A stretch of DNA of 64,000 nucleotides from Arthrobacter sp. KBS0703 (lineage in GTDB: Bacteria; Actinomycetota; Actinomycetes; Actinomycetales; Micrococcaceae), in NCBI RefSeq assembly GCF_002008315.2, contig NZ_MVDG02000001.1, positions 3,844,001 through 3,908,000 of the forward strand, given 5' to 3'. The stretch's first letter is position 1; the number at the start of each line of letters is the position of its first letter. The notes below the pieces were generated by a model that worked only from the letters and a program-made list of their open reading frames with translations, made no database searches and was not told where the DNA came from. Below are positions 4,796 through 50,301 of this stretch, one piece after another. The translations under genes and the position numbers were made by a program.

Positions 4796-5773
4796 TCAGA
4801 TGGTGGTGACTTCGGCTTCCTCTGCTGCTGCTTCGACGCGGTTGAGTTCGGCACGCGTGGGCGGATTGGCACCGGCGCGGGACACTGTCACGGCGGCGGC
4901 GCGGGAGGCGTGCGCCAGGAGGGCGGCGAGGCCTGTCTCTTATACACATCAGATGTGTATAAGAGACAGGTTCTGGGCTCCGGCCAGCCCGCGGTCCACC
5001 ACGCCGGACAGCAGCGCGGCCATGAAGGAGTCGCCGGCACCCACGGTGTCCGCCACTTCCACCCGGGGCGCGGCGAATTCGGTCTCCCCCGCCGCCGTGA
5101 TGCCCCACGGGCCGGCCGCTCCGCGGGTCACCACCACCATGGCTGGGCCTTCGGCGCCGCCCAGCGACAGCCAGCGCCGCGCCGAGTCCAGCACGTCGAC
5201 GCCCGGGTAGAGCCAGGCGAGGTCCTCGTCGGACGCCTTGACGACGTCCGAAAGAGTCACGAACTTCTCCGCCTGGCGCCGGGCATAGTCCGCATCCGTG
5301 ATGATGCTGGGGCGGCAGTTGGGGTCAAAGCTGATGGTCGCGGAGGGGTGGGAATGTTCGACGGCGGCCAGGACGTCAGCGGCGCCCGGCGCCAGCATCG
5401 TGGCAATAGAGCCGGTGTGAAGCAGGGTGGTGCCCTGCAGCATGAACGGCAGCCGTTCGGCGAGGCCGGGAAGCTCCCAGGCGAGGTCGAACGTGTAGGT
5501 GGCGGCGCCGTCGTCGTCCACCAGTGCGGTGGCCACGCTGGTGGGCAGGCCGTCCGGGGCCTGCGGGAGCATGACCGAACTGGCCTTCAGGTGGGCGGCC
5601 ACCGACTCGCCGTAGGCGTCGCGGCCATAGCGGCCGATGAACTGCACGGGGTGGCCGAGGCGGGCGAGGCCCACCGCGACATTGAGCGGGCTGCCGCCGA
5701 CGTGGGCTTCGATTCCGGAGCTGCGCTGGACGACGTCAACGAGGCCCTCGCCAATAACTGTGAGCATGGACAT
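4796..5773 (-). CDS. PfkB-family fructokinase, interrupted by adapter sequence
   Basis: Residues 1-269 form a ribokinase-fold sugar kinase: the opening VIGEGLVDVV, the substrate loop GGSPLNVAVGLARLG, and the catalytic DTVGAGDSFMAALLSGV (anion hole and base). Coding is then broken at 4933-4969 by 37 bp of paired mosaic ends, which add the false ending LSLIHI. Beyond it, in another frame, the proper C-terminus resumes (LAALLAHASRAAAVTVSRAG, then ANPPTRAEL) and ends at 4796. The organism's gene is therefore probably intact, around 310-325 residues, with some native bases missing here. A fructose or related sugar substrate is inferred from family resemblance. Start may be 5773 or 5767. Confidence 0.85.
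4933..4969. other. Library adapter: paired Tn5 mosaic ends inside fructokinase
   Basis: CTGTCTCTTATACACATC is followed directly by AGATGTGTATAAGAGACAG. This is the 38-bp mate-pair junction adapter minus one base. It breaks the reading frame of a kinase whose two halves match on either side, so it is a sequencing-library remnant and not native DNA. Confidence 0.95.
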
Positions 5774-5823
5774 ACTCTGCCAGAGAACGCGGCCCGGCGC
5801 TCAGTGGATCCGGGCAGGCAACA

Positions 5824-5851
5824 GTGCAGCGGACCTTCCGGCCCGCTGCAC
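5824..5851. terminator. Hairpin after the desaturase gene
   Basis: GTGCAGCGG pairs with CCGCTGCAC around a 10-base loop, 21 bp beyond the desaturase stop and ahead of the fructokinase start. No clear T-run follows, so termination strength is uncertain. Confidence 0.5.
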
Positions 5852-5871
5852 GCTCCCGCTGCGGTAATTCG

Positions 5872-7050
5872 CTAGGACTTCTTTCCCGGCAGCGCGAGCT
5901 TGAAGACCTTGGCCCAGGACGATCCGACCTGCTTGAGCAGCGGACCCGTGGTGTACGGCAGGCCGTAGCGCTTGCAGATTTCCTGCACCTTCGGGGCAAC
6001 CTCGCCGTACCGGTTGGACGGCAGGTCGGGGAAGAGGTGGTGCTCGATCTGGTGGGACAGGTTTCCGGTCATGAGGTGCATGAACTTGGAGCCGGAGATG
6101 TTGGCCGAGCCGATCATCTGCCGGACGTACCAGTCGCCGCGGGTCTCGCCTTCCACCATTTCCTCGGTGAACGTGTCTGCCCCTTCGGGGAAGTGGCCGC
6201 AGAAGATCACCGCATGGGCCCAGACGTTGCGGACGGCATTGGCGGTCAACGTGCCGTAGAGCGCCTGCTTGCCCGAGCCGGTCAGCATGGCGACGGCCGG
6301 AGTCGCGGCGTAGTCCTTGGTGAACTGGGTGACTACCTTGCGGCCCAGGGCCTTGAGGTCACGCTTCATGGCCTCCTTGGACTTCTTGCCCTCTTGGTAG
6401 TCCACCAGCTCGAGGTCGTAGATGGCGATGCCCCACTCGAAGATGGGCGCCAGGATGGCGTTGTACAGCGGGTTGCCCAAGTTGTGCGGCTTCCACGGCT
6501 GGTCGGCATCCATGCGCAGGAGGTTGTATCCAACGTCGTTGTCCCGGCCCACCACGTTGGTCCAGCGGTGGTGGAGGTCGTTGTGGGTGTGCTGCCAGGA
6601 ACGTGCCGGCGTGACGAAGTCCCATTCCCAGGTGGTGGAGTGGATGTCCGGGTCCCGCATCCAGTCCCACTGGCCGTGCAGGATGTTGTGCCCGATTTCC
6701 ATGTTTTCGAGAATCTTGGCGAGGCTCAGCAGAGTGGTGCCCGTGACCCAGGCGGCCTTGTTGCGGCCCATCAGCAGCGCGGCGCGGCCGGAAATCTCGA
6801 GGCCGCGCTGGACCTTGATGACGCGCCGGATGTACGCGGCGTCGGACGCCCCGCGCTTGGCCAGGATGTCGTCCCGGATGGCGTCCAGTTCACGGCCCAT
6901 CTCGGCAACCTGCTCATCGGTAAGGTGCGCCGCAGCCGGAGGACGCACCAGAGGGCTGCCGGAGGAGGCCAGCGCACCGGGGCGGTGCTTTGCCGCCGTC
7001 CCGTTGATCGACGTCGATTTCGCGGCTGTGCGGTCAGATATTGCAGTCAT
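5872..7050 (-). CDS. Acyl-CoA/acyl-lipid fatty acid desaturase (DesA3-like)
   Basis: A 392-residue membrane di-iron desaturase. The three histidine clusters are all present: HNILHG near residue 121, HTHNDLHH near 154 and HQIEHH near 330. Hydrophobic stretches around the clusters fit an integral membrane enzyme that places a double bond in a fatty acyl chain. I chose the ATG at 7050, preceded by GAGGAGCTACACC; the open frame to 7104 overlaps the reductase gene. The partner ferredoxin reductase gene ends 13 bp upstream, the same arrangement as mycobacterial DesA3 and its electron-transfer partner. Roles in membrane fluidity and cold response are plausible but inferred. Confidence 0.9.
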   Translation of the reverse strand: MTAISDRTAAKSTSINGTAAKHRPGALASSGSPLVRPPAAAHLTDEQVAEMGRELDAIRDDILAKRGASDAAYIRRVIKVQRGLEISGRAALLMGRNKAAWVTGTTLLSLAKILENMEIGHNILHGQWDWMRDPDIHSTTWEWDFVTPARSWQHTHNDLHHRWTNVVGRDNDVGYNLLRMDADQPWKPHNLGNPLYNAILAPIFEWGIAIYDLELVDYQEGKKSKEAMKRDLKALGRKVVTQFTKDYAATPAVAMLTGSGKQALYGTLTANAVRNVWAHAVIFCGHFPEGADTFTEEMVEGETRGDWYVRQMIGSANISGSKFMHLMTGNLSHQIEHHLFPDLPSNRYGEVAPKVQEICKRYGLPYTTGPLLKQVGSSWAKVFKLALPGKKS

Positions 7051-7063
7051 ACGGTGTAGCTCC

Positions 7064-8158: not shown

Positions 8159-8467
8159 GTTGTCCACCACCTGTTGGATTCACCCATATATTTCTCCTAG
8201 TGAAGCCGGTGATCGTAATATACAAAACTACCCCAACCCCCAGCTACTACATTCCCCCATGCAGGTGCCGCTAGCAACCGGGAACAACTGTGACAGTAAG
8301 TGTACTTATCATTTATGGTCACGGCGAGCGGGTAGCTCCGAGGGCAAGGCTGGTGCGCCCCTGCCCGGACTCAGCCGGCAGCGGCCTTACTACCTACCCC
8401 ATGACTGTGCAACGAACAGAGGTCGGTGGAGTTCCCATTCTTGCGTACGCGAGCATCAACCCCTCTA

Positions 8468-11579: not shown

Positions 11580-11609
11580 GGCGTCGCACCCCCTTGATAG
11601 TTTGGAACC

Positions 11610-14514: not shown

Positions 14515-14533
14515 AGATGTGTATAAGAGACAG
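14515..14533 (+). other. Library adapter: Tn5 mosaic end between riboswitch and gene
   Basis: A full 19-bp AGATGTGTATAAGAGACAG. It replaces the ribosome site and start codon of the downstream gene, so an unknown number of native bases is missing at this join. Confidence 0.95.
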
Positions 14534-14534: not shown

Positions 14535-15299
14535 ATCCTTGGCCGCCGCCGCGCAGCCGCCACCCGCTCGAATCCGCTCGTTTCGGCCTCCCGCGCCGTC
14601 ACGGCCGGAGGACTGGGACGCCAGACCGCCGTCATCCTCGCGGCGTCGGGGCTTGCCTTCACCGGAAGCATCGCCGCGAATGCCGCCAACGGACCCGCAC
14701 AGCAGGACGCGGCCCCGGCCGCCGCACCCGCCGCGGCACCCGAGGCTGTCAGCCAGGCGCAGGCTCCGCTGAGTGCGGACTCCAGCGTCCGGATTGACTA
14801 CGAGCGCCCCATCGTAAAATCCACCCCGGCTCCCGTCGTGGAAGCCCCGGTCGTGGAGGCGCCGCCCGTGGCAGAGACTCCGGCGCCCGTGGCCGCACCC
14901 GTCGCTGCTCCGGCTCCGGCGAAAATCACCGTCCAGGCCGCGGCGGCTCCGGCCAAGGCCCCTGCGGCTGCCGCCGGCAGCGTCAACGCCTCCATGGTCT
15001 CGTCCGCCTACGCCCAGCTGGGCATCACCCAAGACTGCACCGCCATGGTTGAAAAGGCACTGGGCGCCTCCGGGATCCCGGTGGGCGACCTCGCCCCGAT
15101 GCAGTTCATGAACTACGGAAGCGTCGTCTCCACCCCCCAGCCCGGCGACATGGTGGTCCAGTCCGGCCACGTGGGAATCTTCGTCGGCAACGGCAATGTT
15201 CTCAGCGGTGGCATGAACGGCTCCAACCAGACCGTGGTTCACCCGCTGTCCTGGCTGACCGCCACGGGCCCGGTCACGTTCGTGCGGGCCGCGGCTTAA
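14535..15299 (+). CDS. Secreted NlpC/P60-like cell-wall protein, start lost at adapter
   Basis: About 254 residues remain. The beginning (ILGRRRAAATRSNPLVSASR, then a hydrophobic stretch ending near ANAANG) looks like an export signal. A long Ala/Pro/Val-rich linker covers about residues 55-140. The C-terminal 110 residues resemble a circularly simple NlpC/P60 or CHAP-type domain, with a candidate catalytic cysteine in QDCTAMVEKALG and histidine in PGDMVVQSGHVGIFVGNG. Such proteins cut peptidoglycan peptides. A c-di-AMP riboswitch directly upstream agrees with a wall-hydrolase role. The start codon was removed by the adapter at 14515-14533, so the first few residues are unknown. Confidence 0.8.
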   Translation: MLGRRRAAATRSNPLVSASRAVTAGGLGRQTAVILAASGLAFTGSIAANAANGPAQQDAAPAAAPAAAPEAVSQAQAPLSADSSVRIDYERPIVKSTPAPVVEAPVVEAPPVAETPAPVAAPVAAPAPAKITVQAAAAPAKAPAAAAGSVNASMVSSAYAQLGITQDCTAMVEKALGASGIPVGDLAPMQFMNYGSVVSTPQPGDMVVQSGHVGIFVGNGNVLSGGMNGSNQTVVHPLSWLTATGPVTFVRAAA

Positions 15300-15345
15300 C
15301 AGCGCCACAACATGCATTCAGCGGGGCTCTTAGGGCACCGCGTGG

Positions 15346-15392
15346 AGGGCCGGTGTTCCGCTGCCTTGGGGGCAGCGGAGCGCCGGCCCTTT
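15346..15392 (+). terminator. Strong intrinsic-type terminator after the NlpC/P60-like gene
   Basis: A 20-bp stem (AGGGCCGG..TTCCGCTGCC with its complement) contains only two G-T pairs, with a five-base loop and a short T-run. It starts 46 bp after the stop codon. Confidence 0.8.
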
Positions 15393-15509
15393 CACTGTCC
15401 CGCCGCAGCATCCGGGGATGCGCACCAAATCCCCCTGCACCAGCCGCGGACTAATCAGTATGCTGACAGAACAGCCATTACGACGGCCCGCCACCGGGAG
15501 GAAAAGACC

Positions 15510-16031
15510 GTGAATGAGAGCAACATCGACGGCGGAACCATCGATGACAATTCGTTGTCCGCGTACTTGCACAGCCATCTGATAGCGGCAGCCGCCGGAG
15601 AGCGCCTCTTCGAACAGGCGGCCAAAACCTGGGACGGCACGCCGCACGGCACCACCCTCAGCCACCTTGCCGCGGAAGTGAGCGCGGACAAGGCAGCGCT
15701 CCACGAGTTCTCCGACCTGATGCATCTGCACATGCCGGCCTACAAGAAGCCGTTGTCGTGGATCAGCGCCCAGATCGGCAAACTGGATCCGCTGAATCCG
15801 CTGCACTCCCCCGACGGAGCCACAGGTCAGCTCGCCCTCGAAGGACTCATCAGCGCGGTCACCGGAAAGTCCCTGCTCTGGAAGTCGCTGATCATCCTCT
15901 CCCGCACGGACGGGCGCATCGACCCCGACACGGTCAACCGCTTCCTGGACCGCGCAAACGAGCAAATCCGGGAACTGGAGGCCCTTCTGCTCGACACGAC
16001 GCCGGAGCGCCTCTCCACGTCTGACGGATAG
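15510..16031 (+). CDS. Uncharacterised helical protein
   Basis: A 173-residue protein without membrane segments or signal peptide. Its composition is rich in alanine, leucine, histidine and acidic residues, consistent with a helical bundle; the stretches SLSAYLHSHLIAAAAGERLF and HLAAEVSADKAALHEFSDLM read as amphipathic helices and slightly recall ferritin-like or DUF892-like proteins, but metal-ligand spacing is not convincing. The GTG at 15510 follows GGGAGG at a good distance; ATG at 15513-15520 is out of frame. It stands alone between a terminator and a convergent diguanylate cyclase gene. I do not recognise a function. Confidence 0.65.
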   Translation: MNESNIDGGTIDDNSLSAYLHSHLIAAAAGERLFEQAAKTWDGTPHGTTLSHLAAEVSADKAALHEFSDLMHLHMPAYKKPLSWISAQIGKLDPLNPLHSPDGATGQLALEGLISAVTGKSLLWKSLIILSRTDGRIDPDTVNRFLDRANEQIRELEALLLDTTPERLSTSDG

Positions 16032-16054
16032 GGGCTTCCTGGGCCGTGGCCCGG

Positions 16055-17194
16055 TCACCCTTGGACGGTTCGGTTCCGCCCCTGCGATTTTGCCTCGTAC
16101 AGGGCGACGTCGGCGGCGGCGATCAGCTCGTCCAGGTCTTCCGTCCCTGCCGTGAATTTGGAGAGGCCGTAGCTGACGGTGGGCATCCGGAGCACCTCCG
16201 GTATGGCATATCTGGCAAGCCGCCGGCTGATCTCCGTGGTGATGGTCTCGGCCTGGCGCGGACCAACGCCCGGGATCATGAGGATGAACTCCTCTCCGCC
16301 GTATCGCCCCACAAGGTCCGTGGAGCGGACCGTCTCCTTGCAGGCATCGGCGAACGCCTGCAAGGCAAGGTCGCCGGCCGCGTGGCCGAAGGTGTCATTG
16401 ACTGTCTTGAAGTGGTCCAGATCGGCAAGGATCAGCGTTCCGGACGTGTCGAGCTGCCTGCAGCGGTCCATCTCAGCCGCCGCCAGCTCAATGAACGCGC
16501 TGCGGTTGAGGAGGCCGGTCAGGCCGTCCTCCCTGGCCACGGTCTGGAGTGCCCGCGTCTGCTGCTCCGTGCTGAGTTCGGCCATGCTGAAGGAGCCGAC
16601 CACCAGGAACACCATGGTGACTAGCGTGGTCACGGAGGATCCGAAGTAGGTGACAAACGTCGGACCGGCCGGACCTTCCGCGATGAAGATCGCCAGACGG
16701 CCCACGTAGAAGACGGCGACGCCTCCGGCAGCTATGGCCGTTGGTATCCGCACCCGGGAGTAGCCGGGCTCCAGCTGCCACAGCTCGCGGGAAGCCAGGC
16801 CAATGAAGAGGCACATGGAGCCCAGGAATACAGCACCCCCGGCCCATGTATTGGATCCCGGATTGTCCAGGGCTGCGGCAATGCCCGCGATGCCCGGGAC
16901 GGCGACGGAGAGCCAGACGTTGCATTTAAGCATCCGGAGCGAACGCGCAGCGGCCCAGACACTCGCCACCCCGGCAATGAGCAGGACGTTTCCCAGCGGG
17001 TTGGCCCACACCTGGTGGGGTGTTCCGTCCAGGAGGAAGCTTGCCGCGCCCGCGAGAAACAGCAGCAGGGCCACGCACCACCAGCCACTGTATGCGGAAC
17101 GGGTGGTGCGGAACGCGGAGAAGTAGAACAGGATGCCCATGACTAAAGCCATCACGCTGAAGGCAACGCGGAGTGTTGCCGTGTCTAGGATCAT
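16055..17194 (-). CDS. Membrane diguanylate cyclase (GGDEF domain)
   Basis: A 379-residue protein with seven or so hydrophobic segments in residues 1-210 and a GGDEF domain in the last 165. The active-site loop is RYGGEEF, and RSTD five residues before it is a product-inhibition I-site. The segment DGLTGLLNRSAF and LADLDHFKTVND are the standard substrate and metal-binding parts. It should make c-di-GMP in response to a membrane-sensed signal and be feedback inhibited. The ATG at 17194 is chosen because it begins just before the first membrane helix; earlier ATGs at 17209 and 17290 are possible. Confidence 0.9.
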   Translation of the reverse strand: MILDTATLRVAFSVMALVMGILFYFSAFRTTRSAYSGWWCVALLLFLAGAASFLLDGTPHQVWANPLGNVLLIAGVASVWAAARSLRMLKCNVWLSVAVPGIAGIAAALDNPGSNTWAGGAVFLGSMCLFIGLASRELWQLEPGYSRVRIPTAIAAGGVAVFYVGRLAIFIAEGPAGPTFVTYFGSSVTTLVTMVFLVVGSFSMAELSTEQQTRALQTVAREDGLTGLLNRSAFIELAAAEMDRCRQLDTSGTLILADLDHFKTVNDTFGHAAGDLALQAFADACKETVRSTDLVGRYGGEEFILMIPGVGPRQAETITTEISRRLARYAIPEVLRMPTVSYGLSKFTAGTEDLDELIAAADVALYEAKSQGRNRTVQG

Positions 17195-17350
17195 TTCCGC
17201 CCCCTGCATCGCGATCCAGTGCAACCCAGTATCGCACCCGCACTGCGCCAGCGATGAGTCTGCCGCCGACTGATTCTGCGCGGCCGACACATTTGTCTGA
17301 CATCAGTCACGAATTGGTTTGGGGCGGCTGTTCAGTGCCAGCATTATTGA

Positions 17351-18376
17351 ATGCTTGAGGCAACAAAGACCCCCGAAACTGCTCCGTTGGCCACGGCGGC
17401 CGGCGTCGAGCCACTGAATCCGGCCCTCGCGGCAGAGGCCAAGATCGCCCGTGTTGCCGTGACCGTGTTCCCGCTGCTGGTGCTGGCTGCCGGCGTGGCC
17501 GGATTCCTGCTCCCCGGCGCCTTCCAGCCCCTCGGCCCCGCCGTCCCGTACCTGCTGGGCATCATCATGTTCTGCATGGGCCTAACGCTGACGCCCCCCG
17601 ACTTCGCTGCCGTGGCCCGCAGGCCGTGGGCTGTGGTCCTGGGCATCGTTGCCCACTACGTGATCATGCCCGGGGCGGGGTGGCTGATCGCCACCGTTCT
17701 TCAGCTTGAGCCGGCCCTGGCCGTCGGCCTGATCCTCGTTGGCTGCGCGCCGTCCGGCACTGCCTCCAACGTCATGGCCTTCCTGGCCAAGGGCGATGTT
17801 GCCCTGTCCGTGGCCGTGGCGAGCGTGTCAACGCTGATCGCCCCGATCGTCACGCCCGTACTGGTGCTCTTCCTCGCCGGATCGTTCCTGAGCATCGACG
17901 CCGGCGCCATGGTCCTGGACATCGTCAAGACCGTCCTCCTGCCCGTCATTGCCGGCCTGATGGCACGGCTGTTCCTCAAGAACCTCGTCGCAAAGGCGCT
18001 TCCGGCTCTGCCCTGGGCATCCGCCGTCGTCATCTCCCTCATCGTGGCCGTAGTGGTGGCGGGCAGTGCCGGCAAGATCGTGGCAGCAGGCGGCATCGTG
18101 TTCCTGGCCGTCGTGCTCCACAACGGCTTCGGCCTCGGACTCGGATACCTGGCCGGCAAGCTGGGCCGCCTGGACGACAAGGCTCGCAGGGCACTGGCAT
18201 TTGAGGTGGGCATGCAAAATTCAGGCCTGGCGGCCACACTCGCCACCGCCCACTTCACGCCGCTGGCCGCGCTTCCGTCCGCCGTTTTCTCGCTGTGGCA
18301 CAACATTTCCGGCGCCATCGTGGCCGCCTTGCTGGCCCGGAGGCCCCTCCAGGACTCCACGCCCGGCGGTTCCTGA
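17351..18376 (+). CDS. Bile acid:sodium symporter (BASS) family transporter
   Basis: A 341-residue polytopic protein with about ten membrane helices. Family motifs include FCMGLTLTPPDF near residue 77, LVGCAPSGTASNVMAFLAKGDVALSV near 128 with the sodium-site residues, and FEVGMQNSGLAATLA near 285. Bacterial BASS proteins carry organic anions such as pantoate, pyruvate or keto acids with sodium; the substrate here is unknown. A hydrophilic N-terminal extension of about 30 residues precedes the first helix. No strong ribosome site precedes the ATG, so a leaderless or later start is possible. The gene diverges from the diguanylate cyclase gene. Confidence 0.88.
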   Translation: MLEATKTPETAPLATAAGVEPLNPALAAEAKIARVAVTVFPLLVLAAGVAGFLLPGAFQPLGPAVPYLLGIIMFCMGLTLTPPDFAAVARRPWAVVLGIVAHYVIMPGAGWLIATVLQLEPALAVGLILVGCAPSGTASNVMAFLAKGDVALSVAVASVSTLIAPIVTPVLVLFLAGSFLSIDAGAMVLDIVKTVLLPVIAGLMARLFLKNLVAKALPALPWASAVVISLIVAVVVAGSAGKIVAAGGIVFLAVVLHNGFGLGLGYLAGKLGRLDDKARRALAFEVGMQNSGLAATLATAHFTPLAALPSAVFSLWHNISGAIVAALLARRPLQDSTPGGS

Positions 18377-18395
18377 GGCTCAGCGGTTCCTGACC

Positions 18396-19001
18396 TCAGG
18401 CGGAAGCCGCCAGGTGGCCGCGGTCTTGCTCGTTCTTCCCGGCCGGCGGCCGTAGCGCCTTGAGGGCGCCCGCCCAGGCAATGACCTGATCGAACACCGT
18501 GGCCAGGTTCTTCTCCGCCGCGGCGGAGGGCGTGAAGGTCCTGTAGTGCTCGAATTCCGTGGCCAGGGGCAGCGCCACCTGGGCGCGGACGTCGGCCATC
18601 TGCAGCTCTGCCGCCACGCCGCGCAGGTGCTCCACGGCGCGGATGCCGCCCGCGCTGCCGTAGCTCACGAAGGCCGCCGCCTTGTTGTTCCATTCCGCGT
18701 AGAGGTAATCCAGCGCGTTCTTCAGCGCTCCCGGAATCGAGTGGTTGTACTCGCCCGTCACGAAGATGAAGCCGTCAAAGCCGGCCACCGCTTCCGCCCA
18801 GGCCCTGGTGTGACCCTGCTCGTGCTTGCCGAGCGACGGCGGCAGCGGTTCATCCAGCAGCGGGAGGTCAAAGTCGGCGACGTCGAGGAGCTCGAACCGG
18901 GCGTCGGCGCGTTCGGCGGCCCGCAGCAGCACCCAGTCGGCCACCGCCTTTCCCAGCCGGCCTGGCCGGGTGCTTCCCAGTACGATCGCAATCCGTGTCA
19001 T
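18396..19001 (-). CDS. NADPH-dependent FMN reductase (flavodoxin-like)
   Basis: A 201-residue flavodoxin-fold protein. The FMN phosphate loop is VLGSTRPGRLGKAVADW at residues 6-22, followed by FVTGEYNHSIPGALKNALDYL near 85, the canonical NAD(P)H-dependent FMN reductase motif, and VSYGSAGGIRAVEHLRG near 115. The start at 19001 follows GAGG at a good distance; the extension to 19049 is unsupported. It lies 99 bp downstream of a flavin reductase and an FMN-dependent monooxygenase, on the same strand, so it may be a second supplier of reduced flavin. Quinone or azo reductase activity is an alternative. Confidence 0.88.
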   Translation of the reverse strand: MTRIAIVLGSTRPGRLGKAVADWVLLRAAERADARFELLDVADFDLPLLDEPLPPSLGKHEQGHTRAWAEAVAGFDGFIFVTGEYNHSIPGALKNALDYLYAEWNNKAAAFVSYGSAGGIRAVEHLRGVAAELQMADVRAQVALPLATEFEHYRTFTPSAAAEKNLATVFDQVIAWAGALKALRPPAGKNEQDRGHLAASA

Positions 19002-21143: not shown

Positions 21144-22114
21144 TTACGCGGCCTGGGATCCGACGGCAGTCCGCCAGCGGGAGAAATGGCGTTCGACGGC
21201 GACCAGCAGGTAGTTGACCAGCAGGCCCAGCAGCGAAACAGTCAGGATCCCCGCGTACATGTCCGGGATCAGGAAGCTCATCTGGGAATTCACGATCAGG
21301 TAGCCCAGGCCGGCTTTGGCCCCCACCATTTCCGCGGCAATCAGGACCAGGATGGAGGATGTCCCCGCCATCCGGACGCCCGTGAAGATGGTGGGCACGG
21401 CGGAGGGCAGGATGACCTTCTGGAACAGCTGGAAGTTCGACAGCCCCAGCGAGCGGGCGGCCCGGATCAGCAGCGGATCGACGGTCCGGACGCCGGCGAT
21501 GGTGTTCAGCAGGACCGGGAAGAACGCGGCGTAGGCCACGATGCTGATCTTGGATGTTTCCCCGATGCCTAGGAGCAGGGTGAAGACCGGGAGCAGCGCG
21601 AGCGCCGCCGTGTTGCGGAACACTTCCAGCAGCGGATTCAGGAAACGGTCCAGGGACCGGTACCACGCCACCAGCAGGCCGAGGGCGACGGCGGCCACCA
21701 CGGCGATGCCGAAGCCGCTGGCCGAACGGGTCAGGCTGGCCGCGAGGTGGTTCTGCAGCTGGCCGTTCTCGATGAGGGTTCCCAGTGCCTGAAGCACCAC
21801 GTGCAGGGGCGGAAGGAAGACGCGCGTGGAGGGCGGCGCGAGATAGGTGGGGCCCAGCTCCCACAGCAGCAGGAACAGCAGGATCGCTCCGGCGCCCCAG
21901 GCCGCGCGCCCCGCCGTCAGGGCCGCCAGGCGGAACCGTGAGGGTCTCTTATACACATCTAGATGTGTATAAGAGACAGGGCATGGGGCGCCTGGCCCGG
22001 GGCTTTGGTCGCGTCGGGCGTCGCGGCGTCCGTTGCTGAGCCGTCCACCGCAGGAGTGCCCGTTGCGGGAGCGTCCTGGGTTGTCGTGTCTTTGGCGAGT
22101 GTTGGCGTGCTCAT
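21144..22114 (-). CDS. ABC transporter permease (SsuC/TauC-like), interrupted by adapter
   Basis: The N-terminal 45 residues run from the ATG at 22114 (STPTLAKDTTTQDAPATG and on, a hydrophilic lead), then 36 bp of paired adapter interrupts, and about 266 residues continue in another frame from SRFRLAALTAG to the stop at 21144. The C-terminal part has six hydrophobic segments and the permease EAA loop (AARSLGLSNFQLFQKVILPSAVPTIFTG broken over its usual length). The frame change shows native bases are missing at the join, so the gene is probably intact in the organism. Its ATG shares a base with the stop of the ATPase gene (TGATG). It would form the membrane channel of a nitrate/sulfonate/taurine-type importer; no binding-protein gene is present nearby. 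Confidence 0.85.
21944..21979. other. Library adapter: paired Tn5 mosaic ends inside the permease gene
   Basis: GTCTCTTATACACATCT abuts AGATGTGTATAAGAGACAG, giving 36 of the 38 bases of the mate-pair junction adapter. The reading frame of the permease differs on the two sides. Confidence 0.95.
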
Positions 22115-23022
22115 CAGGCTGCCTTTCCTGTGGGGATGTTTCTTGCTTCATCGGGTGCCGAACCGTCCGGCTGGATCTTGGCGTGCCCGGCTTCCTGGGC
22201 ACGCCGCACCTCGTCGTGAAGGAGGGACCAGACCTTGTGCCGGTGTTCCACGAATGCGGCGTTCGAGCGCACGTCCTCGTCCCCGGACCGGTCGCCCAGG
22301 TCGATGTCCACGATCTCTTTGAGCCGGCCTGGCCGGGAACTGAGCACCGCCACCCGCTGGCCCAGGTACACGGCTTCGTCGATGCCGTGCGTGATGAAGA
22401 TGATGGTCTTGCCCGTAGCGGCCCAGATGCGCAGCAGTTCGTCCTGGAGCTGCTCGCGGGTCTGGGCATCCAGTGCCGCGAACGGTTCGTCCATCAGCAG
22501 GACGTCCGGTTCGTAGGCCAGGCTGCGGGCTATGGCGACGCGCTGCTTCATCCCGCCGGACAGCTCATGCGGGTACCGGTCCTCGAAGCCGCCGAGGCCC
22601 ACGAGCTCGAGGTACTCGCGCGCCCTTTCGGTGCGATCCTTGCGGTTGAAGCGTTTCCCGTCGCTGCCGGCTCCTTCGAGGCCGAAGGAGACGTTCGCCG
22701 CCGCCGTCCGCCACGGGAAGAGCGCATACTGCTGGAAGACGACGGCACGGTCCCGGCCCGGTCCGGTGACTTCCCTGCCGTCCACCAGGACTTTGCCGGC
22801 GTCCGGCTTCGTCAGCCCGGCCAGCAGGTCGAGGAGCGTGGTTTTGCCGGAGCCGCTCGGCCCCACGAGAGTGATGAACTCGCCGGCGGAGACGTCCAGG
22901 GAGATGCCGTCGAGGGCTGTCAGGAGCGTGCCTTCGGGGTTCTCCCTGGTGGGCCGGACGGTGAACCTCTTCGTGATGTTCTGGAGGCTGATTTTCGGGG
23001 TGGGGGCGGTGCCGGAAGTCAT
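22114..23022 (-). CDS. ABC transporter ATP-binding protein (SsuB/TauB-like)
   Basis: A 302-residue ATPase. Walker A is GPSGSGKTT near residue 53, the Q-loop is VFQQYALFPW near 93, the signature LSGGMKQR near 150 and Walker B VLLMDEPFAALD near 173, with the H-loop THGIDEAVYLGQ. The C-terminal 60 residues extend past the core, as in nitrate/sulfonate-type ATPases. The ATG at 23022 follows GAAGGGAAG; the frame extends to 23256 but lacks family similarity there. Its stop overlaps the permease start by one base. Together they import a substrate probably handled by the downstream monooxygenase. Confidence 0.92.
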   Translation of the reverse strand: MTSGTAPTPKISLQNITKRFTVRPTRENPEGTLLTALDGISLDVSAGEFITLVGPSGSGKTTLLDLLAGLTKPDAGKVLVDGREVTGPGRDRAVVFQQYALFPWRTAAANVSFGLEGAGSDGKRFNRKDRTERAREYLELVGLGGFEDRYPHELSGGMKQRVAIARSLAYEPDVLLMDEPFAALDAQTREQLQDELLRIWAATGKTIIFITHGIDEAVYLGQRVAVLSSRPGRLKEIVDIDLGDRSGDEDVRSNAAFVEHRHKVWSLLHDEVRRAQEAGHAKIQPDGSAPDEARNIPTGKAA

Positions 23023-23376
23023 GGTGAGCTTCCCTTCAGCAGGTGGTTGAATGCGTTCGTGTCCACCATGAGAGCAGAGATGGATCACCGCCTGAAGGGC
23101 GCGGTCACGAGGGGCAACGCGGCGTAATCTGCCGGCGCCGGCCGGGTAAGCCGGCTCCACGACGCGACGGGACGCGTGAAGAAACACTGAGTAACAGCGG
23201 GCGTCTTCCGGCGCCATCGGATGACGCATTGCGCCCGATTCGGGGCGCGCAGGCACGCTGATGTTTCGGACCGCTACGGCCAGTGACGGGCAGCGGCAGC
23301 CGGCGGCGCCTGCCCTTCAGCGGGCAGCCGGGCAGCGAGCGGGTCCGATTGTTACGCTGCGGCCGGCGGCCGGTTC
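23023..23376. other. 354-bp upstream region of the ABC/monooxygenase operon
   Basis: The region lies between the LacI-type gene stop and the ATPase start, all leftward. It is GC-rich with several short inverted repeats (for example GGCGCGCAGG.. and CCGGCGCCGGC near 23130). The ATPase frame stays open across most of it, but without similarity. I see no binding-protein gene and no recognisable riboswitch. Confidence 0.5.
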
Positions 23377-24923: not shown

Positions 24924-26663
24924 TCAGGTTCCTGCCGGGTAGGCGGCCCTGTACGTGGACGCGAAACGTCCGGGCGGCATCGTTTCCGTCACCGGCTGGT
25001 CGGCGTAGATGGGGTCGTTGTTCCTCAGGTCCCCCACGGCGAACTGGACCATCATGTCGTGGTCCTCGTGCACCAGGTTGTGGCAGTGGACCATGTAGCG
25101 GCCGCCCTCGTGCTTGCCGGTATCGAACTGCATGAGGACAGTGACGGACTCGTTCTCCCCGGCGTAGAAGACGTCCTTCGGGCCGCCCTCCCAGGCGTAG
25201 GGCTTGCCGCCGTTGGTGTTCCGGCCGATGATCTTGCCGTCGATCAGGTGGATGTGCACCGGGTGGAACCAGCCGCCGGACTCGTTCACGATGGTCCACT
25301 GTTCCACCTGATTCTTCTGCGGGTTCGCGAAACACCGGGTGAAGTTGGACTTTTCCACCGTGTCCCAGGTTTCGCCGTTGATGGTCCATTCCCCGCCCTT
25401 GCGTTGGACCCGCAGGATCCTCTTGGCCACGGCCATGTCCGGGGTCAGCGACATGGTCTCGAGGCCTCCGGTGGCCCGGCTCGGGTGCGGTCCGATGTCG
25501 AGGGTGGACGGGATGGAACTGATCGAGCGGGAGTTCGACCCTGCCGGGGACGGGGAATCCGCCACGACCTGGAACTTCATGACCTTGCCGGTGTTGGCGT
25601 AGTTCACGTTGTTCTTGTTGCTCAGGTTCCGCAGCTCCACTGACTGGCCCGGCCGGTACTTCCGGAAATCGATCAAAACCTCGTACCGCTCCGCGGTGCC
25701 CTGCCGCCAGGACGAAACAGCCTGGACCTTCGGGGTCATGCCGGCGTCGGTGCCCACCACGTAGAAGGGGTCCCCGTTGGACAGCGCGAACCGGTAGGAG
25801 CGGGTGATGGAGCCGACCAGGAACCGGAACCGGTAGATCCGGGGCTTGACCTTCATGGTGGGCCAGGGCACGCCGTTGACCATCACGATGTCGCCCCACA
25901 GGCCGGAGTGCCCGTTGTCGTTGTAGCCGAGCGAGCCGTCCGCGTTCAGCATCACGTCGGTGACCAGGATCGGCACGTCGAACTCGCCTTGAGGCAGCTG
26001 CGCCTGCTCGTGCGCATCGGACAACGTGTAGATAGCGGCGAGTCCAGAGTAGACGCCCTGCGCGGTGAGCATGTGGTTGTGGTCGTGGTACCAGAGCGTC
26101 CGGGCCGCCTGCCAGTTGGGGTAGTGGTAGTTCTTCACCTTGCCCGGGGCGGTGCGGTCGTTCGCGTAGCCGTCGTACTGCGGCAGCGACGCCGAGCCGT
26201 GAAGGTGGGTGACCGTGTTGGACGGCTCCGTGTAGAGCAGTCCTCTCCCCGGAAGGGCATTGCTGATCCGGACCTCCGTGCGTGTGCCTTGCGGAACGCG
26301 GATGGTGGGGCCGGGGAAGATCCCGTTGTAGCCGGCCAAGGTGGTGGACAGCCCGGGCGCGATCTGGGCCTGCCCCAGCTTCTGGGTCAGCGAATACTTC
26401 GCGAATCGCTGGCCGTCAGGGTCGCGACCTGTCGAGAACGGGACAAGTTCCGGCGGACGGCGGAAGGCGGCGGTATACGGGACCGGAGTGTTCTTCGCGG
26501 CCAGCTTGCTCGGAGTGGTGACCGGCGTGGATGTGGTGGCTTCATTGTCATCGGCACCGCGCCTCGCTGCCACACCGTCAAGGACCGGGCCCTCCTTCAT
26601 CCCGGTAAGGGCTACCGCGCCGCCCAGCATGCTCAGCTTCAGCATGTCCCTTCGTGTTGCCAT
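24924..26663 (-). CDS. Tat-exported multicopper oxidase (CotA/bilirubin oxidase-like), copy 2
   Basis: A 579-residue oxidase very similar to the one at 8726-10417 along its whole length. It starts with a twin-arginine signal (MATRRDMLKLSMLGGAVALTG). Copper segments are THLHG near residue 145, WYHDHNH near 182, HPVHIHL near 475 and HCHNLVHEDHDMM near 535. Compared with copy 1 it has about 16 more residues, mostly in the linker after the signal and near the third domain. GGAGGAGAA precedes the ATG at 26663. Unlike copy 1 it heads an operon with a lipoprotein. Divergent position and insertions suggest an old duplication, not a recent copy. Confidence 0.92.
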   Translation of the reverse strand: MATRRDMLKLSMLGGAVALTGMKEGPVLDGVAARRGADDNEATTSTPVTTPSKLAAKNTPVPYTAAFRRPPELVPFSTGRDPDGQRFAKYSLTQKLGQAQIAPGLSTTLAGYNGIFPGPTIRVPQGTRTEVRISNALPGRGLLYTEPSNTVTHLHGSASLPQYDGYANDRTAPGKVKNYHYPNWQAARTLWYHDHNHMLTAQGVYSGLAAIYTLSDAHEQAQLPQGEFDVPILVTDVMLNADGSLGYNDNGHSGLWGDIVMVNGVPWPTMKVKPRIYRFRFLVGSITRSYRFALSNGDPFYVVGTDAGMTPKVQAVSSWRQGTAERYEVLIDFRKYRPGQSVELRNLSNKNNVNYANTGKVMKFQVVADSPSPAGSNSRSISSIPSTLDIGPHPSRATGGLETMSLTPDMAVAKRILRVQRKGGEWTINGETWDTVEKSNFTRCFANPQKNQVEQWTIVNESGGWFHPVHIHLIDGKIIGRNTNGGKPYAWEGGPKDVFYAGENESVTVLMQFDTGKHEGGRYMVHCHNLVHEDHDMMVQFAVGDLRNNDPIYADQPVTETMPPGRFASTYRAAYPAGT

Positions 26664-26830
26664 GACTTCTCCTCCAAGTTCCTGGTAGTTCGTATGGGCT
26701 GCGGGCACGTTTGCTTCAATGTGGTGGCCGTGGCTATCGCCAGCCTTGCTCTGCCGCGGAGAAGACTGACTACGAAATTGATGCACAACTACCGATCCGG
26801 GAGTGGAACAAGGCCATCGTGCGCCGATCG

Positions 26831-28480: not shown

Positions 28481-30272
28481 CTACTCGATCCGCCCCACTA
28501 CGGAGCCGGCGCTGACCACTCCGCCCGGCGCGGTCACGAGTTCCGAGAGCGTTCCCGAGCGGTGCGCTGCCACCTGCGTTTCCATCTTCATGGCCTCCAG
28601 CACCAGCAGCGGATCCCCGGCAGTCACTTGTGCGCCCTCTTCGACGAGCCATTTCACCACGGTGCCGGCCATCTGCGAACGCAGCTCCGCCGGGTGCACG
28701 CCGCTGCCGTCCATCTAGATGTGTATAAGAGACAGCTGCCGGTGGTGCCGCCGGCGGCGGAAGCTCCGCCGTCGTACCCGGCCGGGAGTCCCTGACGGGA
28801 GCGGGCCCAGCCGTCCAGCAACGCGGCCGGCAGCCCGACGGCCAGCCGCTTGCCGTCCACGTCGACCGTGATGGTGCGGCGTTCGCCGCCGGGGGCAGCC
28901 GTGCTGAACTGATCATCGGCCGGAATCTGTCCTGCGAAGTCCGTCTCGATCCACCGGGTGTGGACGCCGAGGCGGTCCGCGGCCGTGAAGTCCGGGGCCT
29001 GGACGACGGCGCGGTGGAACGGCAGGACGGTGGGAACGCCGGTGATACGCATCTCGGCTAGCGCACGGCGGGACCGGCGCAGGGCCTGCTGGCGGTCCGC
29101 GCCGGTAACGATCAGCTTGGCGAGCAGGGAGTCGAACTGCGGCGGTACCAGCGAGCCGGAGCCGAATCCCGCGTCGAGCCGGACGCCGGGGCCCGTGGGA
29201 CCGGTGAACTCGGCCACCGTGCCGGGGGACGGCAGGAAGCCGCGCCCCACGTCCTCGGCGTTGATCCGGAACTCGAAGGAGTGGCCCCGCGGGGCCGGGT
29301 CCTCGGTGAACCGCAGCTGCTCCCCCGCGGCGATCCGGAACTGCTCCTGCACCAGGTCGATTCCGGTCGTCTCCTCCGTGACGGGGTGCTCCACCTGCAG
29401 GCGCGTGTTCACCTCCAGGAACGCCACGGTGCCGTCCGCCGCCACGAGGAATTCGACCGTTCCGGCACCGGAATAGCCGGCCTCGCGGCACACCGCCTTG
29501 GCGGCGTCGTAGATTTCCCGGGTCTGCTGTTCGCTCAGGAACGGCGCCGGGGCCTCCTCCACGAGCTTCTGGTGGCGGCGCTGAAGGGAGCAGTCGCGCG
29601 TTCCTACCACTACTACGTTGCCGTGCACATCCGCCAGGACCTGGGCCTCGACGTGCCGGGGCCGGTCAAGGTAGCGCTCCACGAAGCATTCGCCCCGGCC
29701 GAACGCGGCCACGGCTTCCCGGACGGCCGAGTCGAACGACTCCTCGATCTGGTCCATCTCGCGGACCACCTTCAGCCCGCGCCCGCCTCCGCCGAAGGCC
29801 GCCTTGATGGCTATGGGCAGGCCGTGCTCTTCGGCGAAGGCCCGGGCCTCAGCGGCCGTGGCCACGGGGCCGTCGCAGCCGGCCACGAGCTGTCACATAT
29901 ACGCACGGCGATCTCCCGTGCGGTGATCTTGTTGCCCAGCATCCGGATCGCCTCGGGCGTCGGGCCGATCCATATCAGTCCGGCGTCCAGGACGGCCTGC
30001 GCGAAGTCCGCGTTCTCGGACAGGAAGCCGTACCCGGGGTGGACCGCGTCCGCGCCGGAATCGGCCGCGACGCGGAGCAGCTTCGCGATGTCCAGATAGG
30101 TTTCCGACGGAGCGTTGCCGGCGAGGCTGTACGCCTCGTCTGCGGCAGAAACGTGCAGTGCGTCGGCGTCGACGTCGGCGTACACGGCCACCGAGCCGAG
30201 TTCCGCGTCATCACAGGCACGGGCAATGCGGACGGCGATTTCACCGCGGTTGGCGATCAGGACCTTGCGCAT
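28481..30272 (-). CDS. Biotin carboxylase with biotin carrier domain, interrupted twice
   Basis: The start ([22 protein letters not shown]) and the ATP-grasp core ([44 protein letters not shown]) form an AccC/AccA-type biotin carboxylase. The last 77 residues are a biotinyl domain with EAMKMET. The frame is broken twice: near 29890-29902 by a degraded mosaic end where family members have an AGAP-like segment, and at 28711-28734 by an adapter before the carrier domain. Both breaks look artificial. Its ATG shares a base with the pxpBC stop. AccBC-like genes are often found beside oxoprolinase genes; the carboxylated substrate is unknown. Confidence 0.85.
28711..28734. other. Library adapter inside the biotin carboxylase/carrier gene
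   Basis: CATCT followed by AGATGTGTATAAGAGACAG, that is 24 bases of the mate-pair junction adapter. It creates a false ATG and splits the biotinyl domain from the carboxylase. Confidence 0.95.
29890..29902. other. Probable degraded mosaic end causing a frameshift
   Basis: CTGTCACATATAC matches 11 of the 13 terminal bases of CTGTCTCTTATAC. It lies exactly where the biotin carboxylase frame breaks, between REIAVR and LVAGCDGPV, where relatives have four extra residues. Likely an adapter remnant with base errors. Confidence 0.6.
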
Positions 30273-32082: not shown

Positions 32083-32838
32083 TCAGGCAAACGCGGCAAG
32101 GGTGACGCCGGCCCCGCTGAGGGCCGACTTCACCGCGGTAGCCATGGCAACGGCCCCGGGAGATGTGTATAAGAGACAGCTCTCGGCCCGGATTTTGAGG
32201 ATGGAGCCGTCCACGGCACGGACGGCAGATTCGGTGGCCATCCGGAGGACATGCTCGGCAACCTGTGCCGGATCCTCCAGGACGGACCCCGGCAGTGAGC
32301 GGGAGACGAGCGTGCCCTCCGGGGTGTAGGCCCGGTCCGCGAAGGCCTCCGGTACGGCCCGCAGGCCGGCGGCCTCGGCCAGGCGCAGCACTTCGGAGCC
32401 CGGGAGGCCCATGATGGGCAGTCCGGGATCCACGGACTTGACGGCGTCGACGACGGCCCGTGCCTGCGCAGTGTGGTGGACGATGGCGTTGTAGAGGCCG
32501 CCGTGCGGCTTGACGTATTTGACGCGCGCGCCCTCCGCTGCGGCAAGTGCCTGCAGCGCGCCGATCTGGTAGACCACGTCATCCGCCAGCTCGTTGGGGT
32601 CGATGTCCAGGAAGCGGCGGCCAAAGCCCGCGAGATCGCGGTAGCCCACGTGCGCTCCGATGACGACGCCGGCCGCCGCGGCTTTCCGGCAGGTGCTGCG
32701 GATGACGCTGGGGTCACCTGCGTGGAAGCCGCACGCGACGTTGGCGCTGGTGACCGAGCGGAACATTGCCTGGTCATCGCCCAGGGTCCATCGCCCGAAG
32801 GATTCCCCGACGTCACTGTTCAGGTCCATGGTTGGCAT
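32083..32838 (-). CDS. pxpA: 5-oxoprolinase subunit PxpA (LamB/YcsF family), interrupted in frame by adapter
   Basis: About 251 codons. The opening [49 protein letters not shown] and [10 protein letters not shown] are the family signatures with the metal and substrate residues. Near the C-terminus, after ILKIRAES, relatives have a conserved CVHGD-like segment before PGAVAMA; here that stretch is replaced by CLLYTS, which is the translation of the mosaic end at 32161-32179. The apparent open frame is therefore misleading: the native motif is missing only because of the adapter. It is 140 bp upstream of pxpBC and begins the operon. Confidence 0.9.
32161..32179 (+). other. Library adapter: Tn5 mosaic end inside pxpA
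   Basis: A full 19-bp AGATGTGTATAAGAGACAG that happens to keep the minus-strand frame open and adds the false peptide CLLYTS in place of a conserved active-site loop. Confidence 0.95.
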
Positions 32839-47237: not shown

Positions 47238-47280
47238 GGATCTCTTCTCTCGTGGCAGTGCTGGAGGGGATGGGCATGAT

Positions 47281-47312
47281 TTCCTATATGAATTTCGATA
47301 ATCATATAGGAA
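47281..47312. promoter_or_regulatory. GntR operator palindrome overlapping the dehydratase promoter
   Basis: TTCCTATATGA and TCATATAGGAA form perfect 11-bp arms with a 10-bp spacer, 44 bp before the dehydratase start. The boxes CTATATGAT recur at 48268-48298. It overlaps the -10 element, so binding should block transcription. Confidence 0.75.
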
Positions 47313-47328
47313 CTGTGACCCAGATCAA
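47301..47328 (-). promoter_or_regulatory. Promoter of the sugar-acid catabolic operon
   Basis: On the minus strand TTGATC, 16 bases, TATGAT. The stretch GGACTTGATC.GG.TCACA around the -35 is repeated at the transporter promoter (48246-48264) and also resembles half of a CRP/GlxR site (TGTGA-N6-TCA). Confidence 0.7.
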
Positions 47329-47372
47329 GTCCCGGACTCCCGCGTCCCGTCTCCGCCGGCGCCACGGGACAG

Positions 47373-47401
47373 AAAAATGCCCCGGCCACAAAGGCCGGGG
47401 C
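47373..47401 (-). terminator. Intrinsic terminator after the GntR gene
   Basis: On the minus strand GCCCCGGCC and GGCCGGGGC form a 9-bp stem with a five-base loop, followed by ATTTTTCTG. It starts 22 bp past the GntR stop. Confidence 0.85.
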
Positions 47402-47422
47402 TGAGGTGCGGCGAGGCTCCGC

Positions 47423-48151
47423 CTACCGGATAATCCGCTTCCGGGGCGGCCCGCCGTCCTCCAGCGGCGACAGTTCCGCATGCCCCTCGAAGGCCTGGGC
47501 GAAGCGGCCAAAGGAGTTGCGGATATGTTCCGCCATGGCGGCCTCGGCCTGCTCCGGCAGGCATGCCTCGATCGCATCCCGGACGGCCGAATGCTCGGCC
47601 ACGGTGATGGCGCCGTCGACGTCGGCGGGGTACAGGCGGAAGGTGTGGAGGTGGCAGTGGGTCTGGGCGAAGGCGTGGCGGACCACCGGGTTGCCCGAGG
47701 CTGCGAGGATGGTGTCGTGAAAGCGAGTGTCGTGGGCCACGAGGTCCTGCCGCAGGTCCCCCGCGGTGGCCATGGTCTCCCGGAACCCGGCAAGCTCCTT
47801 CCCCAGGGCCGCCGCAGGATTCGCCAGCCGGTCCACGGCGGCCGCGCGCGCCGCCCAGGGCTCCACGAGGAGACGGAATTCAAATAGCGACCGCAGCTCA
47901 GCCAGCCCCAGCAGCGGGGTGGTGCTGTAGCCGCGCCCGGGGCTGTAGACCACCAGGTTGTCGCCCTCGAGGCGCTGCAGCACTTCCCGCACGGGCGTCT
48001 GCGAGACGCCGAGGGTGCGCGCAACGGCGTCGATGTTGATGCGCGTGCCCGGCGCAATTTCGCCCTCCAGGATGGCCGCGCGCATGGACGAATAAACGTC
48101 AGTGACTGCGGCTTTGCCTCGTGAAGTATCGGACGATTGACGTGGTGGCAC
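47423..48151 (-). CDS. GntR-family (FadR-type) regulator of sugar-acid catabolism
   Basis: A 242-residue regulator. The winged helix is at about residues 18-85 (VYSSMRAAILEGEIAPGTRINIDAVARTLGVSQTPVREVLQRLEGDNLV in its segments), followed by an all-helical FCD effector domain with the metal-site pattern (DTRFHDTILAASGN, HCHLHTFRL, EHSAVRDAI). The start is a GTG at 48151 after AGAGGTAAG. It sits between the catabolic operon and a divergent transporter, each preceded by CTATATGAT boxes, so it most likely represses both and is released by a pathway intermediate. Confidence 0.9.
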   Translation of the reverse strand: MPPRQSSDTSRGKAAVTDVYSSMRAAILEGEIAPGTRINIDAVARTLGVSQTPVREVLQRLEGDNLVVYSPGRGYSTTPLLGLAELRSLFEFRLLVEPWAARAAAVDRLANPAAALGKELAGFRETMATAGDLRQDLVAHDTRFHDTILAASGNPVVRHAFAQTHCHLHTFRLYPADVDGAITVAEHSAVRDAIEACLPEQAEAAMAEHIRNSFGRFAQAFEGHAELSPLEDGGPPRKRIIR

Positions 48152-48249
48152 GCGCTTACCTCTTTGGTTCTGGTCTGACGGGAGTCGTTTGGGGAATCAT
48201 AAGCCACCGCGCGCCGCGGACGGAGTGCGGAACTTTTTTGGAGCAGGAC

Positions 48250-48277
48250 TTGATCCGGATCACATTATCTATATGAT
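48250..48277 (+). promoter_or_regulatory. Promoter of the MFS transporter gene
   Basis: TTGATC, 16 bases, TATGAT, the same elements and spacing as the catabolic operon promoter, preceded by the same GGAC. Confidence 0.7.
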
Positions 48278-48298
48278 TAACCAGATTCCTATATGATT
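48268..48298. promoter_or_regulatory. Two GntR boxes in direct repeat
   Basis: TCTATATGATT at 48268 and CCTATATGATT at 48288 lie 20 bp apart (two helical turns), the first overlapping the -10 of the transporter promoter. Same box as the palindrome at 47281-47312. Confidence 0.65.
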
Positions 48299-48378
48299 TT
48301 GGCGCCGACATCTTCGGCGTCTTCCCTCCCGCCGGTGCCCAGGGCACCCGAAGCCATGTTCACGTCGAAGGAGACCGC

Positions 48379-49719
48379 ATGACTGCGCTCGGAAGCAAGA
48401 CCGCCACCAAGTCATCCCCCACACCACCGCGCCTCATGACCCGGAAGCGCTGGGTCATCATCTGGCTCGCCTTCATCGGGCTCAGCATCAACTACCTTGA
48501 CCGTTCAAGCCTGAGCGTCGCACTACCGTTCATGGGCAAGGACTTCGAGCTCACCGCCACGCAGCAGGGCCTCATCTTTGCAGCCTTCTTCTGGGCCTAC
48601 GACTTCTGCCAGCTCGCCGCCGGCTGGTACGTGGACAAGGTGGGGCCGCGCCGGTCATTCTCCCTGGCGGCGGTGTGGTGGTCCGTCTTCACCATGGTGA
48701 CCGCCGCAGCGACCAGCTTCTGGTCACTCTTCGCCGCAAGGTTCCTCCTCGGCGTCGGCGAAAGCCCGGCCCCCAGCACCGCCGCCAAGGTGGTTGGCAC
48801 CTGGTTCCCCGTCCGGGAGCGCGCATTCGCCACCAGCATCTGGGACTCCGGATCGCGGGTGGGCGCCGTCATCGCACTGCCCATCGTCACGCTGATCGTG
48901 GCGGTCACCTCCTGGCACGCGGTCTTCATCATCATCGGAATCGCCGGCCTCATCTGGGCCGCCGTCTGGTGGAAGGTGTACCGCAGCCCGCAGGAACACC
49001 CGGGCGCCAATGCCGCCGAAGTGGCCTACATCGAAGAAGGCGGCGCCCGCGGCGAAGCCAGCGATGACGCCGGAGCCGCCAAGCTGCCGTGGCGTTCGCT
49101 CTTCAAGTACCGCACGGTCCTCAGCATGATGTTCGGCTTCTTCTGCCTGAACAGCGCCATCTACTTCTTCATCACCTTCTTCCCGAGCTACCTCGTGAAG
49201 GAACGCGGCTTCGACCTCCTGAAGCTTGGCTTCTTTGGCGCCATCCCGGGCATCTGCGCCGTGCTGTGCGGCTGGCTCGGCGGCTACCTGGCCGACCGCG
49301 CAGTCCGGGCCGGCGCATCCGTCACCAAGGTCCGCAAGACTGCCATTGCCGGCGGACTCGCAGGCGGCTCCGTCATCATGTTCGCCGCACTGGTTCCCGA
49401 AGCATGGATGGCCCTCGCGCTGCTGTCCGTCGCGTACTCCAGCCTCACCGTTGCCGCCACCGGCATCTGGTCGCTGCCGGCCGACATCGCACCCAGCTCC
49501 CGGCACGTGGGCTCCATCGGCGGCCTGCAGAACTTCGCTTCCAACCTGGCCGGCATCTTCACCCCGATCCTGATCGGCGTGCTTGTGGACCAGACCGGAT
49601 CGTTCGTGGCGCCGCTCGCCGTCATCGGCGCGGTCTCCCTCATCGGTGCCGCCAACTACCTGTTCGTCATGGGCAAGATCGAACCCCTGAAGGTAAAGGA
49701 GCCGGTACCGGCGGTTTAA
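48379..49719 (+). CDS. MFS sugar-acid transporter (ACS family, glucarate/galactonate type)
   Basis: A 446-residue transporter with twelve membrane segments. SINYLDRSSLSVALPFMGKDF near residue 37 and ARFLLGVGESPAPSTAAKVVGTWFP near 118 match the hexuronate/glucarate/galactonate group. AAGGAGACCGC precedes the ATG at 48379. Its promoter carries the same elements as the fuconate-type dehydratase operon, so it very probably imports the sugar acid broken down by that operon. A palindromic repeat starts 6 bp past its stop. Confidence 0.9.
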   Translation: MTALGSKTATKSSPTPPRLMTRKRWVIIWLAFIGLSINYLDRSSLSVALPFMGKDFELTATQQGLIFAAFFWAYDFCQLAAGWYVDKVGPRRSFSLAAVWWSVFTMVTAAATSFWSLFAARFLLGVGESPAPSTAAKVVGTWFPVRERAFATSIWDSGSRVGAVIALPIVTLIVAVTSWHAVFIIIGIAGLIWAAVWWKVYRSPQEHPGANAAEVAYIEEGGARGEASDDAGAAKLPWRSLFKYRTVLSMMFGFFCLNSAIYFFITFFPSYLVKERGFDLLKLGFFGAIPGICAVLCGWLGGYLADRAVRAGASVTKVRKTAIAGGLAGGSVIMFAALVPEAWMALALLSVAYSSLTVAATGIWSLPADIAPSSRHVGSIGGLQNFASNLAGIFTPILIGVLVDQTGSFVAPLAVIGAVSLIGAANYLFVMGKIEPLKVKEPVPAV

Positions 49720-49725
49720 CAACAG

Positions 49726-49788
49726 CAACGCGGGGTCACTTCCCGCCCCATCCGGACCTCCGGACGGGCGTTAAATGACCCCGCGTTG
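49726..49788. repeat. 63-bp palindromic repeat, copy 2
   Basis: Same perfect 13-bp ends as copy 1 (CAACGCGGGGTCA, TGACCCCGCGTTG) and the same total length. The inner part also pairs (CGCCC..TCCGGA with TCCGGACGGGCG), so the whole element can fold as one long hairpin and may act as a terminator. Confidence 0.85.
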
Positions 49789-49810
49789 CAGTTGGGTTGG
49801 GGGTGGGGAA

Positions 49811-50301
49811 CTACAGCTCCACTGATGTGTATAAGAGACAGCGCCGACGCTCATGCGGCTGTGGGTGACCTTGGACTTGACCCACTGCAGCACGGTGGCC
49901 GCGGTGCCGCCGGGGCTCGTCCAGTATTCAGCGGAGTCCGAGTCAACGCGAAGCAGGACCACCTCGGGAGTGTCGGGTCCGTCCGGGAACCACGCTTCAA
50001 CGGCCTGGTTCCACAGTTCGCGGATCTTCGCCCGGTCCCGGACCACTTCCGCGGTTCCGGCGACTGACACCCATTCCGTTCGCTTGCCGAAGGACACGTT
50101 GACCCGCGGATCCGCGCCGACGTGGGCAACCTGGGAAGTTCCTTCCCCGGTGAAGAACCACATGTCGCCGTCGTCCTTGACGTCTTGGACGGCCAACGGC
50201 CGGCTGACCAGCGCGCCTTCTTCGTTGATGGTGGTAAACATTCCGATGTGGGAATGGTTGATGATGTCCGTGACCTTGCTGATGTTTTCGGTTTCCGGCA
50301 T
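49811..50301 (-). CDS. Pyridoxamine 5'-phosphate oxidase-family general stress protein, interrupted by adapter
   Basis: Residues 1-154 form a split-barrel flavin-binding protein of the general stress type: SKVTDIINHSHIGMFTTIN, LVSRPLAVQDVKDDGDMWFFTGEGTSQVAHVGADPRVNVSF and DGPDTPEVVLLRVDSDSAEYW in sequence. The coding end is replaced by an adapter at 49824-49841. Just beyond it, VEL and a TAG at 49811 look like the original end, as in relatives ending TVEL. The organism's gene is thus probably intact, around 165-175 residues. GAGGTGG lies before the ATG at 50301. A palindrome GTAAGC-GT-GCTTAC sits about 96 bp upstream. Confidence 0.85.
49824..49841 (+). other. Library adapter: Tn5 mosaic end at the 3' end of the stress gene
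   Basis: GATGTGTATAAGAGACAG, 18 of 19 bases of the mosaic end, replacing the last codons of the gene. Confidence 0.95.

Follow-up and report, generated by a model that had tools for sequence, protein, structure and literature searches.

The 19-bp sequence AGATGTGTATAAGAGACAG, found at six of the seven places that the initial annotation listed in this stretch of DNA, is almost certainly (probability about 0.98) an untrimmed Nextera-type mate-pair circularisation adapter that has been assembled into the genome of a soil bacterium. The window, that is, the whole stretch of 64,000 bp that was analysed, spans positions 3844001-3908000 of C1, a contig of 4,420,187 bp in an assembly of 4,860,540 bp in 37 contigs. 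The decisive evidence is a 38-bp junction, a palindrome composed of two 19-bp mosaic ends placed head to head, which joins the two ends of chromosomal fragments measuring about 3.1-4.5 kb, as in an untrimmed mate-pair circle. The mosaic-end sites are an assembly artefact with several hundred false joins and represent no biological feature.

Extent of the repeated sequence in the assembly

The whole-assembly screen for the 19-mer that the initial annotation had proposed as a check was run and returned 681 exact copies (339 + 342), compared with 0 for the reversed control. These numbers, together with the closed fragments described below, bear out the earlier identification of the sequence as the Tn5 mosaic-end adapter. 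The exact 38-bp junction is present in 251 copies, leaving by subtraction 179 19-bp ends (88 + 91) outside perfect 38-mers, and the sites with an intact 19-mer number at most about 430. In addition to the window, 16 stretches of C1 were examined; they were not drawn at random, several having been picked where copies had already appeared, so their copy density is no estimate for the genome. There were no Ns in the 384 kb of C1 made up by the window and these stretches.

The flanks of 29 full junctions were higher in GC content, 0.711 versus 0.659 (p about 1e-6). The predicted folding of the same flanks was also stronger (p about 8e-7), an effect that was weak when GC was matched (p = 0.017). 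Junctions in C1 are often paired: two of them lie about 80-400 bases from each other and enclose a short island, for example at 59254/59555, 106315/106697, 418386/418467 and 799034/799202. We compared the window and the 16 stretches with one another for displaced copies of such islands from 3-4 kb away, and among hits of at least 95% identity and more than 42 bases no second copy of an island was found; the hits consisted of the junction adapter plus a few chance bases.

Closed fragments in the small contigs

Eleven of the 35 small contigs (C3-C37) were retrieved: C8 and C18 for their matches to the window, and nine arbitrarily. Six were mapped to C1, two were all N, and for C6, C10 and C15 the comparison was limited to the window and the fetched stretches. 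In all six mapped contigs the junction closes a chromosomal fragment end to end, giving nine fragments of about 3.1-4.5 kb whose sizes carry an uncertainty of a few bases, since the fragment ends and the adapter share some letters:

C8 (3,822 bp): fragment of 3.79 kb, window 14760-18546 opened between 17130 and 17131; a full 38-mer joins its natural ends
C5: fragment of 4.15 kb, C1 4280706-4284853; anatomy as in C8
C7: fragment of 3.89 kb, C1 2870373-2874266; anatomy as in C8
C4: three junctions; overlapping fragments of 3.86, 3.87 and 4.53 kb
C3: fragments of 3.56 and 3.61 kb; by self-comparison, a closed walk through two overlapping circles
C18: fragment of about 3.1 kb, starting at window 18808 and ending just past 21943

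Eight of the nine fragment-closing junctions are exact 38-mers, the exception being the middle one of C4. The ends of C3, C5, C7 and C8 abut exactly on the chromosome. C18 carries a second junction at its first base, which leads to window 19827 and for which no partner was seen. The six mapped contigs duplicate chromosomal sequence and inflate the assembly, and this may explain part of its 2.58% contamination estimate.

C18 also provides a second reading of one of the sites within the same assembly. It agrees with the window up to the site at 21942 and then has 20 letters that are absent from the window, namely 15-18 genomic bases (a shared GTC can be assigned either way) plus the CT with which the junction begins. 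The remainder of the junction follows and then window 18808, 3.1 kb away, whereas the window continues with a junction two bases short and then 21980. The ordinary bases that C18 has where the window has adapter contradict the 21942 site.

Copies in the window

A scan of the window for the mosaic end, allowing up to three mismatches, gave eight matches at six sites, while 100 shuffles gave none. At each of the six sites the mosaic end is exact or has one mismatch, and the chance expectation is none. The sites, with one doubtful case placed last, are as follows:

4933-4951 (-) and 4951-4969 (+): head-to-head mosaic ends, 37 of the 38 bp of the junction, one T missing
14515-14533 (+): single exact 19-bp mosaic end
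21942-21960 (-) and 21961-21979 (+): mosaic ends placed head to head; 21944-21979 holds 36 bp of the junction
28717-28735 (+): exact mosaic end; the CATCT before it supplies five more junction bases, 24 bp in total (28712-28735)
32161-32179 (+): single exact mosaic end
49823-49841 (+): mosaic end that is mismatched only in its outer base
29890-29902: AT-rich 13-mer CTGTCACATATAC with a 1-base frame break; adapter origin unproven

The claim that two of the sites match the head-to-head mate-pair junction was confirmed, with 37 of 38 bp at 4933 and 36 bp at 21944. The position given earlier for the fourth site, 28711-28734, was off by one, as the 19-mer preceded by CATCT occupies 28712-28735. Of the seven copies originally counted, six stand and that at 29890-29902 is no clear copy. 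Its local alignment score against the junction was matched by 90 of 20,000 shuffles of its own letters and reached by 33 of 20,000 random 13-mers from the window, for a 13-mer that had been picked after the fact. Relatives are GC-rich and one base longer here in all five aligned loci, out of 14 loci tried, the other nine giving no alignment on that strand.

The junction remnants in the window measure 37, 36 and 24 bp, followed by three with 18-19 bp. None of the six sites is a perfect 38-mer although 251 exist genome-wide, and at all six the + half, next to the right flank, is kept and the left half is cut or absent; we counted both points against the mate-pair reading. Shortening during joining would explain the missing junction bases as such.

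The initial annotation had each site interrupting or removing the start of a gene, which holds for some sites and not for others. At 4933-4969 the adapter lies in a - strand gene for a PfkB-family kinase (Pfam PF00294) and brings in-frame stops towards the end of the gene; in a protein search with its product the nearest records were from Arthrobacter and Pseudarthrobacter (94% for Arthrobacter sp. ISL-28 and AFG20). The site at 49823-49841 likewise affects a gene end, replacing the C-terminal end of a gene without a Pfam match, with the frame open. At 32161-32179, inside a gene of the LamB/YcsF family, the frame is also open and six foreign residues, CLLYTS, are encoded. The copy at 14515-14533 shifts the frame of a gene close to its start; the NlpC/P60 match of this gene is weak and below the cut-off. 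The 28712-28735 site and the doubtful 29890-29902 correspond to two frame shifts within one biotin carboxylase gene. Finally, 21942-21979 has an ABC permease gene on one side (21147-21857) and an ABC ATPase gene on the other (22117-23058). The adapter stands at the N-terminal part of the permease or ahead of it, and since it leaves the frame open, gene prediction could give the permease a false N-terminal extension.

Comparison with related genomes

Ordinary sequence is found in a relative, G042, at most of these sites. At 4933 it has about 31 ordinary bases compared with 37 adapter bases in the window, and ordinary bases likewise replace the adapter at 14515, 28711 and 49823. At 32161 there are 22 bases between the matching pieces, versus 19 in the window, and the protein alignment is in frame throughout. 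At 21942 and 28711 the alignment of the near flanks to G042 was too poor to give a replaced length.

The 19-mer was found in one of the 98 other genomes searched (99 rows with G000), in a collection that by its description holds one genome per species. That genome, G014, has 5 + 2 copies. Six of the seven are stubs at contig ends, five at base 1 and one occupying 26646-26664, the last bases of a contig of 26,664 bp, while in the seventh (C118, 4479-4507) a 19-bp adapter stands directly before ten N. This placement looks like the state before gap closing.

Alternative explanations

The mosaic end could have come from ordinary short-insert Nextera libraries, as adapter that was read through, rather than from mate-pair libraries. 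The 179 of 681 19-mers that lie outside perfect 38-mers would fit such an origin, as would the single ends at contig edges in G014. However, the i5 or i7 primer parts should then continue beyond the mosaic end; a search of the window for these adapter parts, at up to two mismatches, gave scattered, chance-like matches only, none within 400 bases of any site. Moreover, circularisation is needed to produce the 251 exact head-to-head junctions and to close fragments of about 3.1-4.5 kb. We regard short-insert read-through as very improbable.

Many scattered copies in a single genome are also what one would see if a short mobile element or palindromic repeat of natural origin, with Tn5/IS50-like ends or of the MITE type, had spread through it, and the 19-mer does resemble the IS50 outer end, with three mismatches. 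In the window, however, the outer end, at three mismatches, picks out nothing other than the mosaic ends, and no inner end is found with up to three mismatches allowed. The head-to-head ends abut directly, with no cargo or transposase between them, and of the 29 full junctions none has an exact 9-bp target-site duplication, nor even one matching at 7 of 9 positions. G042 shows ordinary bases in the adapter's place and no clean empty site, the one genome with the 19-mer among the 98 others searched has it at contig ends and at one gap edge, and C18 reads genomic bases at 21942 in the very same assembly. A natural element is so improbable on this evidence as to be negligible. The mosaic end is also part of laboratory transposons, and its presence could in principle mean that the strain was really mutagenised or engineered with Tn5. 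This is the least probable of the explanations weighed: there are up to about 430 sites, the head-to-head ends enclose no cargo, and 9-bp duplications are lacking. The earlier statement that the sequence is neither a new repeat, a CRISPR nor a transposon agrees with these results: transposon, MITE, CRISPR and engineered Tn5 were all rejected on the absent duplications, the abutting ends, the lack of native ends in the window and the occurrence in 1 of 98 genomes.

Possible origin of the joins

The initial annotation had explained the sites as untrimmed adapter at gap-filled joins. False joins are supported by the 251 junctions, the six mapped contigs and G014; as for gap filling itself, we infer that joining during gap closing is the most likely route by which the mate-pair adapter entered the chromosome. 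Contigs may have stopped at GC-rich, poorly covered places, ending in reads that ran into the junction. When gaps were closed, the adapter stubs at their ends could then have served as a universal, self-complementary overlap: since the junction reads identically on both strands, every junction-bearing end seems to overlap with every other. Neighbouring contigs would thus have been fused over the adapter or over a few bases in common, with no Ns at the join and a loss of roughly ten to a few tens of real bases.

We lean towards a broader conclusion, namely that a self-complementary adapter serves as a universal false overlap that raises apparent contiguity. The genome would on this account contain up to about 430 hidden joins, each with lost bases and often with a broken frame at GC-rich places, and other N-free short-read assemblies built with mate-pair libraries would be likewise scarred.

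Implications for annotation

Genes at adapter sites should not be labelled pseudogenes, and adapter-encoded residues such as CLLYTS, VYKRQ and SYTHLDVYKR should stay out of protein databases. With the genome rated 99.99 complete, the completeness measure is blind to false joins. A screen for the 38-mer, on the other hand, detects the junction artefact at once, and the value of these results is as a data-quality warning.

Comparison with known systems

The junction corresponds to an adapter in published use. In PMC7357533 a biotin-labelled ring adapter is used to circularise fragments of about 4 kb; all 38 letters of that adapter are identical to the junction in this genome, and the circles of about 4 kb closed by the protocol compare with fragments of about 3.1-4.5 kb here. 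In PMC6298255 junction adapters are introduced by tagmentation and trimmed with NxTrim. The two procedures differ in that the former sonicates the DNA and ligates the adapter whereas the latter tags with a transposase, and the sequence alone cannot tell which route was taken in the case of this genome.

Library adapters in deposited genomes have been described for TruSeq, where, according to PMC11536531, 1,020 of 15,657 reference assemblies were contaminated after FDR correction, the contamination being concentrated at contig ends and lowering contiguity. The present case is similar in that a library adapter persists in a deposited genome, and in scale, with 681 copies of the 19-mer here and as many as 805 of a 12-base adapter in a single assembly in that work. 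It differs in the kind of adapter and in its location, as the TruSeq adapter was found at contig ends while here a mosaic-end junction lies in the interior of a contig of 4.42 Mb, of which the 384 kb that were read contain no N. The effect on contiguity also differs, having been lowered by the TruSeq adapter in the account of PMC11536531 and apparently raised by false joins in this genome.
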